Assembly (NCBI GenBank): GCA_945870545.1
Contig: CAMBTF010000030.1
Coordinates: 1 to 10,112, forward strand
Length of the DNA: 10,112 nt
Direction of reading: 5' to 3'
Source of the DNA: Akkermansia muciniphila
GTDB taxonomy: Bacteria; Verrucomicrobiota; Verrucomicrobiia; Verrucomicrobiales; Akkermansiaceae
Shown: piece after piece, positions 5,332 to 10,112 of the stretch
Position numbering within the stretch: the first letter of the stretch is position 1
How the letters are laid out: each line of letters opens with the position of its first letter
The notes under the pieces: model-generated
What the model was told of the DNA's origin: nothing
Database searches by the model: none
Seen by the model: the letters and a program-made list of their open reading frames with translations, nothing else
Position numbers and translations under genes: made by a program

Positions 5332-5613
5332 TCACTCCAACAATCTGCTTTGGAACACCTCGTAGATCCACTTCCGCGGCCCTGCGAAAACACAGGTGAT
5401 CATGCGGCTACCCTCGATGATCTGGTATTCGAAAACAACCCGGTGCGCGCCGACCCGCAGCCGATAAAATCCTTCCAGCTCATCCGTGAGCGCCTTGATA
5501 TCACCCTTTTCATGCGCCAGATCCTTGATGGCCAGCCGCAGCGTATGGCGGGGCTGCGGAGCCAAACGGCGGAGGTAATCCACCACCTCATCCTGAATGC
5601 GGACGGCGATCAT
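5332..5613 (-). CDS. RelE/ParE-family toxin of a type II toxin-antitoxin pair
   Basis: The 93-residue protein has the size and core pattern of the RelE/ParE superfamily: an N-terminal helical hairpin rich in Leu and Arg (about 8-35), then GFYRLRVGAHRVVFEY (48-63), the usual strand pair with conserved arginines (R51, R53, R58), and a last strand at about 71-78. RelE-type members cut ribosome-bound mRNA and ParE-type members poison gyrase; the sequence alone does not settle which. The ATG at 5613 overlaps the antitoxin TGA by four bases (ATGA), which fits translational coupling. The stop is 69 bases from the start of the metal ATPase. No frameshift or truncation is seen, so the toxin looks intact. 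Confidence 0.88.
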   Translation of the reverse strand: MIAVRIQDEVVDYLRRLAPQPRHTLRLAIKDLAHEKGDIKALTDELEGFYRLRVGAHRVVFEYQIIEGSRMITCVFAGPRKWIYEVFQSRLLE

Positions 5614-5858
5614 ATCCCGTCGAGCACCGAGACATCATGGTATTTGGCCTTGTCCGCGCGGTGTTTACGGATCGCGGACATCGCCTTCGGATCCGCCAGA
5701 AGCTCCATGGTTTCGCCGATGGCCTCCATCCGCTCCATAGAGATCAGAACCGCCACCGCGCGCCCCTGCTTCGTGATCGTCACGGGATGATCCACTGCCT
5801 CCTCCACCAAGGCCGAAAACCTTTGCTGCGCGGTCTTGATCGTGTAGCTATCACTCAT
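5610..5858 (-). CDS. YefM/Phd-family antitoxin
   Basis: This is an 82-residue antitoxin, first gene of the pair. Residues 9-46 (from TAQQRFSALVEEAV through HPVTITKQGRAVAVLI to MERMEA) have the Phd/YefM DNA-binding fold pattern: an AxxxFSxLV helix followed by the VTITKxGRxVAVLIS strand pair. The C-terminal half (about 47-82, charged, helix-forming) should wrap and neutralise the toxin. Members of this family bind palindromes in their own promoter, often together with the toxin. A perfect inverted repeat lies ten bases upstream of the ATG at 5858. Its right arm contains AAGGA, the only Shine-Dalgarno-like sequence near the start, though its spacing of about 13 bases is long. Confidence 0.88.
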   Translation of the reverse strand: MSDSYTIKTAQQRFSALVEEAVDHPVTITKQGRAVAVLISMERMEAIGETMELLADPKAMSAIRKHRADKAKYHDVSVLDGI

Positions 5859-5908: not shown

Positions 5909-6415
5909 CTACAATTTATCCAGCGGTGGCGTATCGCCCGGCTTGCTCGGCTTGCCTGTTTCCGGGTCGATCCCGATCATGAGCCACACCTCGCGGATGA
6001 TGCGCATCGAGACCTCGCCGAGGAGTTCCGACTCATGTCCGATGCCCGCCACGCCGATGTTGATCGAGGGCACGGAGCCGTTCGGCGTATCGGCGCTGCC
6101 CACCTCGACGAAAAGCCTGCGGCTGAGCTCTTTCACCGCGGCGGCTTCGCCGGGCTGCTTGAATTTCTCCTGCAGGCCGATGTCCGCCACCACTGCCCGC
6201 AGGATCTCCTCGGTGCGGAGTTTATCCTCGATCTGCTTCGCTAGGTTCTTCTGATCCTCCATCGAGATATCCGCCCGCAGCGCGATGGGCACCCAGATTT
6301 TGGAGGGCTGGCGGAGGTGGTATTCGCTTTTTGCGAAACGCGCTACGAAGAACATCACCGTCAGGCCGACGACGCCCATCACCGTCCATAACATCCACCG
6401 TTGCATGCGCATCAT
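5909..6415 (-). CDS. Single-pass membrane protein of unknown function
   Basis: I do not recognise this 168-residue protein. It has one hydrophobic N-terminal segment (about 8-27, WMLWTVMGVVGLTVMFFVAR) after a short basic start, so it is probably anchored in the inner membrane with the rest outside the cytoplasm. The soluble part looks like helix-rich and strand segments: a charged helix at about 52-80 (EDQKNLAKQIEDKL), a segment like the Wzz/chain-length determinant repeat (ILRAVVADIGLQEKF, about 71-85, then AVKELSRRLFVEVG), and a strand with alternating hydrophobics (SINIGVAGIG, about 118-127). The Wzz resemblance is weak and there is no second membrane helix, so no function is assigned. The ATGs at 6415, 6412 and 6406 are all possible starts; a GGAGG lies 15 bases above the first. 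It is divergent from the M16 peptidase, only 42 bases away, so the promoters must overlap coding DNA. Confidence 0.75.
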   Translation of the reverse strand: MMRMQRWMLWTVMGVVGLTVMFFVARFAKSEYHLRQPSKIWVPIALRADISMEDQKNLAKQIEDKLRTEEILRAVVADIGLQEKFKQPGEAAAVKELSRRLFVEVGSADTPNGSVPSINIGVAGIGHESELLGEVSMRIIREVWLMIGIDPETGKPSKPGDTPPLDKL

Positions 6416-6457
6416 TTATGCCCCATTCATCCTCCAGCCAAGCCGGAAATCAGCCCC

Positions 6458-8971
6458 ATGGAATACCCACCCACCCACGCCACCTGCCACACCCTCCCGA
6501 ACGGACTCACGTTGATCCTCGATCCCGATCCCGCCGCGCCGGTCATCAGCGTGCAGGCATGGGTGGCCACCGGCAGCATCCATGAGGGCGAAAAACTCGG
6601 TTCCGGCCTCTCGCATTTCCTCGAGCACATGGTCTTCAAGGGCACCCGCGATTTCACCTCCGAGGAGCTCGCCCAGGCCGTGCAGGCGGCCGGCGGCCAC
6701 TGGAACGCCTACACCACCTTCGAGCGCACGGTCTATTACATCGACGGCCCTTCGCGCTCGCTGGAAACGTTCCTGAAATGCCTCACCGGGCTGGTGTTTT
6801 CCCCCGTCATTCCAGAGTCCGAGTTTGAGTCGGAAAAGGATGTGATCCGCCGCGAGATCGACATGGGTCTCGACGATCCCGACAACGCCTCGATCCGGCT
6901 GCTCTTATCTACGGCATTCACCGTAGATGCCCGCCGCCACCCGGTCATCGGCCACCGCCATCTCTTCGATGATATCCAATACGCCGATCTCACCGCCTAT
7001 CACCGCGCCCGCTACACGCCGGATCGCACGCACCTCGTGATCTCGGGTGATTTCGATCCGGCGAAAGCCCGCGAGCTCGTCATGGAGCTGACGGCGGATT
7101 GCAAAATCGTCCCCGGCCCCGAGCCGCATATCCAGGCGGACGCGGTGCAGCTCGGGCCGCGCGAGGGCTTCGACACCTTCGATGTGCCGACGAGCCGTTT
7201 GTGCCTTTCCTGGAAAGCCCCGGACGTTGCCCATCCCGACGCGCCCGCCTACGATCTGCTCGCCGCCATCCTCGGACGCGGCAAGGCATCCCGCCTCCAC
7301 CGCCGCCTCCGCGACCAGCGCGAACTCGCCATCGAGATCTCCGCATGGACATGGATCGGCCCCGGATCGGAAGGGCTTATCGCCGTCTCCGCGGAATCCG
7401 CTCCCGAGAAACGCGACGAGCTCAAGGCCGCCATCCTCGCCGAGATCGAGGATATCGCCGCCAGCGCCCTCGATGAGGATCTCGCGAAAGCAAAGCGCCA
7501 GACGGCCGCCAGCCAATTCCGCTCGCTGACCACCGCCTCGGGTCGCGCTTCCGATCTCGCGTCGAACTGGCATGAGGCGCGCGATCTCGATTTCACCCGC
7601 AGCCACCTCGCCGCGATCAACGCCGTCTCCGCCGACGACATCCGCCGCGTGGCCGCGAAGCTTTCCGAAAACCGTCTCACCTACACCTCGGTCGATCCGA
7701 AGGATCACGTGCCCGCCGCCACGCGCAGCAAAGCCGCCGCCGTCTCCCACGCGATCACCACCCACACCCTTTCCAACGGCCTCCGCCTCGCGCTGCTACC
7801 GGATCGCCGCGTGCCGCTCATCCATTTTCAGGCTGCTGCCGGCGCGGGCTTGCCTTCGGAAAACCCGCAAACCAACGGCCTCAACCAGCTCCTCGCCTCC
7901 ACCTTGCCCAAGGGCACCGCGACCCGCAGCGCCGATGAAATCGCCCACGCCCTCGAGTCGCTCGGCGCATCCATTTCCGCCTCGGCGGGCAACAACGCCC
8001 TGCTCGTCCAGGCCTCCGGCCTTTCCGCCGACGCCCTGCCCATCATGGAGGTCTTCGCCGATGTGATCCTCAATCCCACCTTCCCCGCGGAGGCCATCGC
8101 CCGCGAAAAGGCCTCGCAGCTCGCGTCGTTGGAAGAAGCCCTCGCCGATCCGCTGCACCGCTGTTTCGCGCAGCTCCGCGCCACCCATTACAGCGGCACC
8201 GGCTACGGCCTCGATTCGCTCGGCACCTTGGATACGTTGGGAAAAATCGCACGCGTCGATCTCGCCGCCCACCCCGCCCGCCATTTCAACGCCACCAACC
8301 TCACCCTCGCCATCTCCGGAGATTTCGACCCCGATCAGCTCATCGGCCTCCTCGAAACCTTTTTTAAAAACCTCCCCGCCGGGGAAAGGTGGATGCCACC
8401 CGCATCTACTACGAATATAGGAGCAAGCGCCGAACTCACCCTACCCAAGAAGCAGGCCGTGCTCGCCATCGGCTACCCCGGCACCCACGTCAGCGGGACC
8501 GACCGCCACGCGCTCGCCTTCGTCCAGGAGCATGCCTCCGACATGGCCGGGCCGCTCTTCGGGCGCATCCGCGAGGAGCTCGGCCTCGCCTACCGCGTCG
8601 GCGCCACCCAGTTCCTCGGCTACGACAGTGGCCTCTTCACGTTCTACCTCGCCACCTCGCCCGAGCAGCTCGAACTCGCCCGCACCGAGCTGCTCAAGGA
8701 AATCGCGAAAATCGCCGCCGAAGGCATCCCCGCGGACACCTTCGAACGCGTCCGCTCCACCGTCCTCAGCGGAGCCGCCATCCAGCAGCAATCCATTTCC
8801 TCGAATGCCCGCCACGCCGCCCTCGACCTCCTCTTCGGCCACCCCGCCGACACCCACCGCCTACTCCCGGAAATCTACGATAAACTCACACCGGAGGAAG
8901 TGTGCGCGGTGGCGAGAAGGATCTTCGCAGCGAAACCAACCGTCTCCGTCATTCTCGGAGAAAAGGGCTAG
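6458..8971 (+). CDS. M16 (insulinase-type) zinc peptidase, two-half form
   Basis: This is a zinc metallopeptidase of the pitrilysin/insulinase family, predicted to degrade or process peptides inside a clam-shaped chamber. The 838 residues are two tandem halves. The N-terminal half (about 8-225) carries the inverted zinc motif HFLEH (53-57) and the third ligand E133 in VIRREI, 76 residues further as expected; the NAYTTFERTVYY block (83-94) is also typical. A C-type M16 domain follows to about 420. The second half begins near residue 430, and at the corresponding site it has NQLLA (476-480) instead of HxxEH, so it is non-catalytic. EELGLAYRV near 708-716 is the usual second-half substrate motif. 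No signal peptide is visible. I chose ATG 6458, preceded by GGAAA, over a TTG at 6401, because homology begins only after it and the TTG would overlap the divergent gene. Its stop overlaps the tail of the convergent gene remnant. Confidence 0.92.
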   Translation: MEYPPTHATCHTLPNGLTLILDPDPAAPVISVQAWVATGSIHEGEKLGSGLSHFLEHMVFKGTRDFTSEELAQAVQAAGGHWNAYTTFERTVYYIDGPSRSLETFLKCLTGLVFSPVIPESEFESEKDVIRREIDMGLDDPDNASIRLLLSTAFTVDARRHPVIGHRHLFDDIQYADLTAYHRARYTPDRTHLVISGDFDPAKARELVMELTADCKIVPGPEPHIQADAVQLGPREGFDTFDVPTSRLCLSWKAPDVAHPDAPAYDLLAAILGRGKASRLHRRLRDQRELAIEISAWTWIGPGSEGLIAVSAESAPEKRDELKAAILAEIEDIAASALDEDLAKAKRQTAASQFRSLTTASGRASDLASNWHEARDLDFTRSHLAAINAVSADDIRRVAAKLSENRLTYTSVDPKDHVPAATRSKAAAVSHAITTHTLSNGLRLALLPDRRVPLIHFQAAAGAGLPSENPQTNGLNQLLASTLPKGTATRSADEIAHALESLGASISASAGNNALLVQASGLSADALPIMEVFADVILNPTFPAEAIAREKASQLASLEEALADPLHRCFAQLRATHYSGTGYGLDSLGTLDTLGKIARVDLAAHPARHFNATNLTLAISGDFDPDQLIGLLETFFKNLPAGERWMPPASTTNIGASAELTLPKKQAVLAIGYPGTHVSGTDRHALAFVQEHASDMAGPLFGRIREELGLAYRVGATQFLGYDSGLFTFYLATSPEQLELARTELLKEIAKIAAEGIPADTFERVRSTVLSGAAIQQQSISSNARHAALDLLFGHPADTHRLLPEIYDKLTPEEVCAVARRIFAAKPTVSVILGEKG
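8778..8813 (+). repeat. 36-base segment of the M16 gene matched again at 9533-9568
   Basis: The bases encoding residues 774-785 of the peptidase (AIQQQSISSNAR) are repeated next to the first copy of the direct repeat with 33 of 36 bases identical. Here the segment is a natural part of the gene; the other copy is the stray one. Confidence 0.8.
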
Positions 8972-9078
8972 CCGGGCAGCCGATGCTTCACGAAATTCAT
9001 GATACGTGGATCTTTCGCCGCCTCCAGCAGCTCTCGCGGCCAGATGGATGCAAAGTCAACCCCGTGATCTCTAGCAAT
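8968..9078 (-). pseudogene. Out-of-frame C-terminal tail of the nucleotidyltransferase-like gene
   Basis: Read in a different minus-strand frame from the gene at 8997-9278, this stretch gives about 36 residues ending in a stop: IARDHGVDFASIWPRELL, then EAAKDPRIMNFVKHRLPG. The residue pattern is that of a real protein C-terminus (hydrophobic and charged alternation, no runs of shadow-frame Arg/Pro). It fits as the lost end of the neighbouring gene after an internal deletion that also shifted the frame. Its TAG (8968-8970) shares CTAG with the peptidase stop (8969-8971), so the intact genes would have been convergent and end to end. This is inference from reading the frames, not from an alignment. 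Confidence 0.5.
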
Positions 9079-9278
9079 GCAACAGTCCCGACCAGATCGA
9101 GATCCTTGCTTGTCAACGGAAGCCAATCGTCAAGGACTTTGCCGATCCGATTGCGATAAAACCACGCCCAGACATTCACGGCATGGCCACCCACCAGAAG
9201 GGGAAGCTCCCCTTTGATCGGCGCGCTCAGCAACGAGGCGAAATCCAGAAATTCCGTCGGTTCGTCCCCGGCTCTCAT
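8997..9278 (-). CDS. Truncated nucleotidyltransferase-fold protein, probably a broken gene
   Basis: The 93-residue reading starts like a small nucleotidyltransferase of the AbiEii/MNT kind: LLVGGHAVNVWAWFY (27-41) gives the glycine pair of the helix turn (G30, G31), and LTSKDLDLVG (55-64) gives the metal-binding DxD (D59, D61). Such proteins are usually well over 150 residues. After residue 64 the pattern is lost and the frame runs on for 29 residues into a stop. A convincing C-terminus lies in another frame just downstream. The likely history is an internal deletion near 9080-9100 that removed the middle of the protein. The ATG at 9278 overlaps the stop of the small upstream gene by four bases (ATGA), so the two were translated as a pair. 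Catalytic function is unlikely now; the third acidic residue is not seen. Confidence 0.6.
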   Translation of the reverse strand: MRAGDEPTEFLDFASLLSAPIKGELPLLVGGHAVNVWAWFYRNRIGKVLDDWLPLTSKDLDLVGTVALLEITGLTLHPSGRESCWRRRKIHVS

Positions 9279-9469
9279 TTCATCGGGTATGCCTTCTTCA
9301 GGTATGCGACCAGATCAAACGTAATCACCGTATCCTTAGGGAAAATCGAGTTTTCCTCCTGAAGCGCCTCCGGGGTGATCTCGCCGGTGCGCAGGCGTTC
9401 CGCATCGCGGGCGCGCTCCTCACGGTGCTCGCGATCCAGTTCTTCAAAGCTGACAAATTCCGATTCCAT
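9275..9469 (-). CDS. Small acidic protein, partner of the nucleotidyltransferase-like gene
   Basis: This 64-residue protein is not recognised with certainty. The N-terminal half (about 4-32) is a highly charged helix rich in Glu and Arg (EELDREHREERARDAERL); the C-terminal half contains EENSIFPKDTVITFDLVAYL, which looks like a short strand and helix. I chose ATG 9469 because GGAG lies four bases upstream; an ATG at 9490 adds seven residues (MVWCWSS) with no better site. Its stop overlaps the start of the next gene by four bases. A small charged protein coupled to a nucleotidyltransferase-fold protein has the layout of a toxin-antitoxin or abortive-infection pair, but the partner is now broken and no biochemical role can be assigned. 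Confidence 0.55.
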   Translation of the reverse strand: MESEFVSFEELDREHREERARDAERLRTGEITPEALQEENSIFPKDTVITFDLVAYLKKAYPMK

Positions 9470-9532
9470 GGAACTCCAACACCAAACCATCCCACGCCCC
9501 CCGTGTCAAGGCGGCGACGAACCTTACCCCCA

Positions 9533-9568
9533 CCATCCAGCAGCAATCCCTTTCCTCCAACGCCCGCC
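9533..9568 (+). repeat. Stray 36-base copy of an M16 peptidase gene segment
   Basis: The bases here match 8778-8813 in the peptidase gene at 33 of 36 positions (differences at 9550, 9558 and 9561). They read TIQQQSLSSNAR in the same sense as the peptidase IQQQSISSNAR. Upstream of 9533 the likeness stops at once; downstream it runs into the direct repeat. It looks like a scrap of this or a related M16 gene carried in with, or broken by, the repeat. Confidence 0.75.
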
Positions 9569-9713
9569 CATACCTCCGAAACTCACCCAAGAGCTGGGGA
9601 GAAGAATCCCAACAGTCCAGAGCCTGCGGCGCCACGGTGTTCCGATGGCCGAGATCAAAGCCAGCGGCTTTCGCCTTGATGGGGCGGGGGGATTGCGGAT
9701 GTAGTGCGCCATG
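9557..9713 (+). repeat. Direct repeat, copy 1 (about 157 bases), ending on the trmB start codon
   Basis: This stretch recurs at 9955-10112 in the same orientation with about four substitutions and one single-base insertion, roughly 97% identity. The shared part begins with CCAACGCCCG and ends with GTAGTGCGCCATG, the last three bases being the ATG of trmB. Inside are a 6-bp hairpin AAAGCC-AGC-GGCTTT (9657-9671) and a G-rich run (9680-9691). No transposase, long terminal inverted repeats or conserved coding frame were found, so it looks like a small non-autonomous or intergenic repeat family. The first bases, AACGCCCGCC, also occur almost unchanged in the M16 gene and may be target sequence rather than element. 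Confidence 0.85.
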
Positions 9714-10055
9714 AACACCTTGCCGCGCCCGCCGATTTCCGAAGCCGAGTTCGTCCCTCCGCATTATTTCCGGCGGCTGGAAATGAATGAAATCCGGAAC
9801 GGGGAGCGGCCGTTGGAGATCGACCTGGGATGCGGGGACGGGTCGTTTCTCGTGGAGCTGGCGGCAGCGTATCCAGAGCGGGATTTCATCGGGGTGGAGA
9901 GGTTGTTGGGGCGTTGTAAAAAGGTGGCGAAGAAAATCCGTCGCGCGGGCGCGGCCAACGCCCGCCCATACCTCCGAAACTCACCCAAGAGCTGGGGAGA
10001 AGAATCCCAACAGTCCAGAGCCTGCGGCGCCACGGTGTTCCGATGGCCGAGATGA
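9711..10055 (+). CDS. trmB: tRNA (guanine-N7-)-methyltransferase TrmB, N-terminal fragment cut off by a repeat
   Basis: TrmB makes 7-methylguanosine at position 46 of tRNA using S-adenosylmethionine. Residues 35-83 are clearly TrmB: LEIDLGCGDGSFLVELA (35-51) is the SAM-binding motif I, FIGVER (59-64) holds the acidic residue that contacts the ribose, and RCKKVAKKIRRAGAAN (68-83) is the following helix. Just after N83 the DNA becomes the second copy of the direct repeat, so residues from about 86 to the stop at 10053-10055 are repeat-encoded (PYLRNSPKSWGEESQQ and so on). Full-length members are about 200-240 residues; the FPDPWPK region and the tRNA-binding half are absent, so no activity is expected. 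The ATG at 9711 is the last three bases of repeat copy 1, and no Shine-Dalgarno is evident. It is a pseudogene or a contig-end effect. Confidence 0.8.
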   Translation: MNTLPRPPISEAEFVPPHYFRRLEMNEIRNGERPLEIDLGCGDGSFLVELAAAYPERDFIGVERLLGRCKKVAKKIRRAGAANARPYLRNSPKSWGEESQQSRACGATVFRWPR

Positions 10056-10112
10056 AAAGCCAGCGGCTTTCACCTTGATGGGGCGGGGGCATTGCGGATG
10101 TAGTGCGCCATG
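9955..10112 (+). repeat. Direct repeat, copy 2, interrupting trmB and reaching the window end
   Basis: This is the second copy of the repeat seen at 9557-9713, 398 bases further on and in the same orientation. It differs by C to G plus an extra A around 10054-10055, G to A near 10072 and G to C near 10090. The TGA that ends the trmB reading frame arises from the first of these differences. The 6-bp hairpin is kept (10056-10070). The last 13 bases are the same GTAGTGCGCCATG that precede trmB in copy 1, and the window stops there, so the right boundary of the element cannot be fixed. Confidence 0.85.

Follow-up and report, generated by a model that had tools for sequence, protein, structure and literature searches.

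A repeated trmB leader at the end of an Akkermansia muciniphila contig and the dispersed hairpin unit inside it

Short hairpin units that are dispersed in a genome, often as inverted pairs with a spacer, make up the GTAG- and CGTC-tagged families of REP, and PMC3733652 describes REP dimers as well as GTAG repeats of O. terrae, a verrucomicrobium. MITEs with a TA target stand between inverted ends next to TA. A head-to-tail copy bounded by a short homology is the form of a microhomology-bounded tandem duplication and of a chimera at a contig end, where the copy stops with the contig. Contigs that metaSPAdes or MEGAHIT break at repeats bear end sequences of the maximum k, according to PMC10914622.

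The window analysed here is the whole of contig C30 of the source assembly G000 (10,112 nucleotides), and it ends at 10112, exactly at the end of the second copy of a direct repeat around the start of trmB. As in a microhomology-bounded duplication or a contig-end chimera, this copy lies head to tail, begins at a short homology and stops with the contig. Unlike in a contig-end chimera, no partner contig with the terminal 149-mer was found in this bin, and, unlike in a recent tandem duplication, the differences between the copies are many, namely four. A hairpin unit inside the repeat is, like REP units, short, dispersed and often arranged as inverted pairs with a spacer; unlike REP dimers, the unit in this leader is solo, and the unit consensus (23 units, by inspection) shows neither GTAG nor CGTC as an unpaired tag next to the stem. 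Several dimers of the hairpin family lie, as MITEs do, between inverted ends next to TA, whereas no match to these ends was found in the window contig and no partner transposase was identified. The second copy does not look like the copy of a jumping repeat, but the short hairpin inside it is a member of a scattered repeat family. With high confidence, we interpret copy 2 as the leader of trmB, rejoined head to tail behind codon 85 of that gene, with no inserted element.

The two copies, the native trmB leader and the joint

An earlier note on this DNA had reported a direct repeat with about 153 of 158 positions shared. The pair is borne out: 9557-9713 and 9955-10112 agree in 154 of 158 columns (97.5% identity), in the same orientation and at a spacing of 398 bases, and it is by far the longest repeat in the window, so that a chance match needs no testing. 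The AAAGCC/GGCTTT stem and the G-run were also present as claimed. No difference was found in the initial 99 nt of the copies; three substitutions and a gap account for the four differing columns, all of which are in the last 58 nt, within 36 nt of each other. Both edges of copy 2 had to be corrected. Its right edge is the end of the contig, with no DNA boundary seen, and its nucleotides 1-11 on the left (9955-9965, CCAACGCCCGC) are native trmB, identical in the trmB loci L056 and L057 of relatives. The coordinates of the features are given in Table 1.

Table 1. Features of the window around the trmB start and the contig end
Feature	Position	Strand	Remark
M16 peptidase gene	6401..8971	+	PF00675, PF05193; start codon is a mechanical call
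Stretch resembling the M16 peptidase gene, just before the leader	9530..9568	+	39 nt; 90% to 8775-8813, 92% to L060 3561-3599
Copy 1	9557..9713	+	Last 112 nt (9602-9713) are the native trmB leader including the start codon
11-nt homology CCAACGCCCGC, first occurrence	9557..9567	+	Read from the sequence
REP-like hairpin unit in copy 1	9589..9631	+	43 nt; model R1, 58.6 bits; the window unit is part of the model alignment
Palindrome AAAGCC-AGC-GGCTTT	9657..9671 (copy 1), 10056-10070 (copy 2)	+	Read from the sequence; also in the G104 leader
trmB (tRNA guanine-N7 methyltransferase), first 85 codons, native	9711..9965	+	PF02390
Copy 2	9955..10112	+	Reaches the contig end; last 73 nt 99% to the G104 trmB leader
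11-nt homology CCAACGCCCGC, second occurrence	9955..9965	+	Last bases agreeing with native trmB; followed by ATCCTGCGG in L056 and L057
Terminal 149-mer of the contig, nearly all of copy 2	9964..10112	+	Starts inside the 11-nt homology
Fused frame tail, residues 86-114 and stop	9966..10055	+	Encoded by copy 2
Same REP-like hairpin unit in copy 2	9987..10029	+	Model R1, 58.6 bits

The first 85 residues of trmB had a match in 57 of the 61 genus genomes surveyed, the source genome included; four genomes had no match, G105 showed one internal stop, and G106 and G134 held pieces at contig ends. The relatives sharing this start were mostly MAGs labelled Akkermansiaceae, Verrucomicrobiaceae, Luteolibacter or Prosthecobacter. 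In the nearest relative, G104 (locus L056), 99% of the residues over the trmB start were identical, and L056 974-1338 matched window positions 9602-9965 at 96%, which identifies the last 112 nt of copy 1 as the native leader of trmB. The leader is present once in G104, immediately upstream of an intact trmB. A search of 73 genus genomes with the final 73 nt of copy 2 gave full-length matches twice in the window contig and once at the G104 trmB, and a weak 38-nt match in G145; the corresponding part of copy 1 is 95% identical to that of copy 2. Other sequence stands upstream of trmB in L057 to L059, indicating that the leader itself is not old within the genus.

Inside trmB, L056 and L057 read GCCAACGCCCGC and then ATCCTGCGG, and the window reads GCCAACGCCCGC and then CCATACC, which belongs to the leader. 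This native continuation in the relatives places the joint at the 11-nt homology, at 9557-9567 and 9955-9965. The trmB part differs from that of G104 at 5 of 255 nt, four of them synonymous, with no decay visible. At all four columns in which the two copies differ, copy 2 has the G104 base and copy 1 has private changes. The open frame here has 116 residues, compared with 209-291 in the 29 best other trmB matches. The 114-residue fused frame formed a one-member protein cluster, from the window contig only, and a protein search with it returned 160 proteins at E 1e-10; among the best 120 of these 160, no other protein covered more than 78% of the query. The metagenome protein P0016, among four sequences read, is identical over 51 shared residues and then continues as native trmB. 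A protein product of the repeat was rejected as a candidate, since the fused frame is restricted to the window contig.

Neither the rest of trmB nor the genes that follow it in G104 were found in the source assembly (72% complete, 317 contigs). When a 2301-nt G104 query, running from the late trmB stretch onward, was searched against this genome, the present locus gave 39 nt only, and two further matches of about 60 nt (80-82%) were on other contigs. In the relatives' loci L060 and L061, a relative of the M16 peptidase gene is directly upstream of trmB, and the peptidase-like stretch just before the leader points to an earlier rearrangement in the region. The last bases of this stretch contain the CCAACGCCCGC string. 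Between the peptidase gene and trmB, two small minus-strand frames without a Pfam match occupy 8997-9490, a sequence that is absent from L060 and L061. A pair of small genes is located on the minus strand at 5335-5858; the first (5610-5858) encodes a Phd/YefM-type antitoxin (PF02604), and the second, which has no Pfam match, is probably the toxin, given this antitoxin neighbour.

The contig end and the origin of the join

Contig ends were compared in a sample of 61 contigs (605,872 bases), consisting of the window and the longer contigs C11-C29 and C31-C71, with both ends of each contig counted (122 ends). An exact 149-nt overlap with another place in the sample was found at 12 of the 122 ends, which is the mode of this assembly, and overlaps of 27-148 nt were found at none of the 122 sampled ends. 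As the last 149 nt of the window start within the homology and contig ends overlap by 149 nt, copy 2 extends for about one assembler k-mer past trmB, within a few bases, and its length was probably set by the assembler (about one 149-mer). The terminal 149-mer was found at two places and at no third place in the bin, and within the 61-contig sample the window contig end has no exact overlap longer than 22 nt. The bin therefore lacks the partner that a graph branch would lead one to expect, and the missing 149-mer partner counts against an explanation by k-mer and rejoined leader. Direct repeats of at least 100 nt were present in 5 of the 61 sampled contigs, and two of them (the window and L138) reach the contig end; L138 is among the 12 ends with a 149-nt overlap. 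L138 belongs to contig C21 of the same genome, which stops within the second of two 97% identical direct copies of a palindromic repeat (L138 9516-9625 and 11635-11744), the first of them internal.

The interpretation of copy 2 as a rejoined leader is based on four findings: the nearest relative has the leader once, its trmB continues natively, an 11-nt homology marks the joint, and contig ends of this assembly overlap by 149 nt. Two places 398 bases apart that have these 11 nt in common would have been joined through slippage or a template switch at the short homologies, which could have happened in the cell or during library preparation or assembly. In the cell, the event would be a tandem duplication, with an intact trmB following the second leader past the contig end; at the library or assembly stage, the leaders of two strain haplotypes would have been joined. 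As the contig stops there, copy 2 would be visible for about one assembler k-mer only. Whether the duplication is true or the join is chimeric or of mixed strains, either origin speaks against a mobile unit of 157 bp.

The repeat had earlier been read as an uncharacterised mobile or spreading element, and this was not borne out for the 157-base unit, whose full-length matches are confined to the window contig. In the source genome, the full 157 bases gave 12 matches, two of full length (both on this contig) and 10 of 31-44 bases; in 96 other family genomes, with up to 8 candidates scored per genome, there was no full-length match, and a match of any length was found in 3 of 97 genomes. This corresponds to one local duplication, the outcome that the earlier note had itself set against a repeat family, and the leader part of the sequence was found once elsewhere, at the trmB of one relative. 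What can be kept is about 43 of the 157 bases (9589-9631), which are a dispersed hairpin repeat. A mobile element of about 157 bp, inserted both in and before trmB, would fit the near identity of the copies and the dispersed hairpin within them. The part outside the hairpin, however, is single-copy and syntenic in G104, and no boundaries or target duplication of its own are visible for the unit, which begins on the left at the 11 nt shared with native trmB and on the right stops where the contig does; such an insertion is hardly credible. Other identities were also rejected for this sequence. A plasmid origin was discarded, as no plasmid matched the 157-bp unit. Known structured RNA was discarded because Rfam gave nothing in the window at gathering scores; at E up to 0.1 over eight sources, the sole match was SRP RNA in L060. 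The AAAGCC palindrome was discarded as a separate dispersed repeat because, with its flanks, it was found at full length solely in G104 and here; a match in G076 covers 34 nt at 85% and begins inside the palindrome.

Concerning how the leader was rejoined, we favour a chimeric or mixed-strain join made in the library or assembly over a true duplication, and put its chances at about even. Copy 2 agrees with G104 at each of the four columns that separate the copies, yet the trmB part is undecayed; the leaders of two strains may differ, whereas a recent duplication in one cell should give nearly identical leaders. On the other hand, 11 nt would be too few for an assembler alone, so that some molecule or read must carry the join, and native trmB at similar depth should break the contig at 9965, where no contig break is seen. 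The unbroken passage of the contig through the junction is instead what a true 398-bp tandem duplication predicts, with leader 1, the 85-codon trmB, leader 2 and an intact trmB past the contig end. The G104 bases would then be in copy 2, before the would-be intact gene, and the private changes in copy 1, before a dead fragment. We consider this duplication possible but lean against it, since the leaders differ at four columns in 36 nt while the trmB fragment is without decay, the join recurs in no second contig or protein, P0016 is intact, and at k = 149 one would expect the contig to break within trmB if a second, nearly identical start of the gene were present. Recombination between two REP-like units is a very unlikely cause of the join. 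The unit is indeed present in both copies, and units occur near contig ends (for example, C306:15-45, C31:157-200 and C2:23507-23537 of 23717), but no unit was found inside the trmB stretch in the seven relatives scanned, which leaves no second unit to recombine with, and the identity of the copies starts 32 nt upstream of the unit, at the 11-nt homology.

A dispersed family of hairpin units and dimers

The hairpin of 9589-9631 is followed by CAGTCCAGAGCCTGCGGCG. Model R1 was built from the source genome and its relatives, which score high by construction, and it detected 32 units in the source genome; of 73 genus genomes, 22 had one unit or more, with a maximum of 81 in G158. Across the order, 25 of 189 genomes and 14 of 43 genera had matches, with lower scores outside the genus. 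Searches over more than 40 genomes were run with stricter filters, and the source genome gave 32 matches in the genus search and 29 in the order search. R1 matched the 61-contig sample 10 times at E up to 0.01, and the window accounts for two of these matches.

Covariation, proposed earlier as a check on the repeat, was found in part for the hairpin unit, which has a 7-bp stem with compensatory changes and exceeded shuffles in three of five measures. In an alignment of 23 of the 31 distinct units, three of them one base shorter at the 5' end, 93.7% of the stem cells were paired compared with 82.6% in shuffles, 22 cells were changed on both sides compared with 5.8, and the covariation score was 0.321, whereas shuffles gave 0.114 and slid partners no more than 0.073. 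Two measures were not above shuffles, namely both-side-changed pairs (3 vs 2.0; 101/500) and further pair types (6 vs 5.5; 287/500). The covariation supports the structure and is no proof of it, since kinship alone can beat shuffles. The unit matched no Rfam family in the sources searched, and a description of the family was not found in the open-licence literature, including an exact-string search with four pieces of the unit and the ends. The hairpin dimers are a real dispersed family, apparently unnamed as far as this limited literature search extends.

The units are often inverted dimers of 155 bp. In 13 inverted pairs from fetched loci, 116-118 nt lay between the units in 12 and 109 nt in one; the middle of the pair varies between L060, L061 and the copies in the source genome, and the length is constant at 155. 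L060 and L061 have a complete pair in the interval from the peptidase gene to trmB, and L056 has one upstream of trmB, so the unit in the window leader is probably the solo half of an older pair. Five pairs in G158 (L217, L218, L219, L220 and L221), picked for width, had 534-796 nt between the units compared with 117, and these spacings are not unbiased because the regions measured were mostly picked for listed units or pairs (L228 is the same pair as L060). By eye, the interiors of the wide G158 pairs hold no obvious gene; they look palindrome-rich and have stretches in common.

Inverted ends of the form ACCRTTTGCCAAAAGTYCGTGCG were found in 9 of 11 genomes, and the reversed-pattern control gave 0. 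Several dimers in the source and related genomes are flanked by inverted ends ACCRTTTGCCAAAAGTYC, with TA at 36 of the 39 listed ends (by eye). Both inverted ends surround units in 10 of 36 loci, and the trmB pairs of L056, L060 and L061 are without them; ACCRTTTGCCAAAAGTYC had no match in the window contig at up to 2 mismatches. In an empty-site search with two dimer loci, the flanks matched different contigs of relatives, or one flank only. The dimer queries L012:900-2300 and L008:800-2200 also matched other short repeats in relatives many times over, with clusters near G150 C4:55135-57425 and C4:286186-287834, for example.

Y1 transposases are present in 60 of 61 genus genomes. The 33 regions around 32 Y1 genes contained no unit except one 4-mismatch match in L115, taken for chance, and no mobilising enzyme for the units was identified in these Y1 neighbourhoods. 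In build, the family looks like REP dimers or MITEs; as it has no GTAG or CGTC tag and no transposase tied to it, we assign it to neither.

These results indicate that what looks like a mobile repeat can be a leader duplicated locally and trimmed to about one k-mer at a contig end, and a check for k-mer length and leader duplication is worthwhile for repeats that touch contig ends. The hairpin dimers themselves are often close to the ends of contigs and may contribute to the fragmentation of assemblies from these bacteria. In the first 130 bases of G158 contigs C25, C30, C41, C56, C60 and C65, units were observed 48, 70 or 83 bases from the contig start, and in G158 it seems as if the hairpin repeat breaks the assembly at fixed points. 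With slightly less than even confidence, we suggest that the unit in the trmB leader may be the remnant of an undescribed mobile repeat of Verrucomicrobiales, which would consist of inverted hairpin dimers of about 155 bp with an exchangeable middle, often within TA-flanked inverted ends and sometimes 570-830 bp long, and would depend for its movement on an enzyme whose gene lies elsewhere; the trmB join would then count among several rearrangements around such elements.
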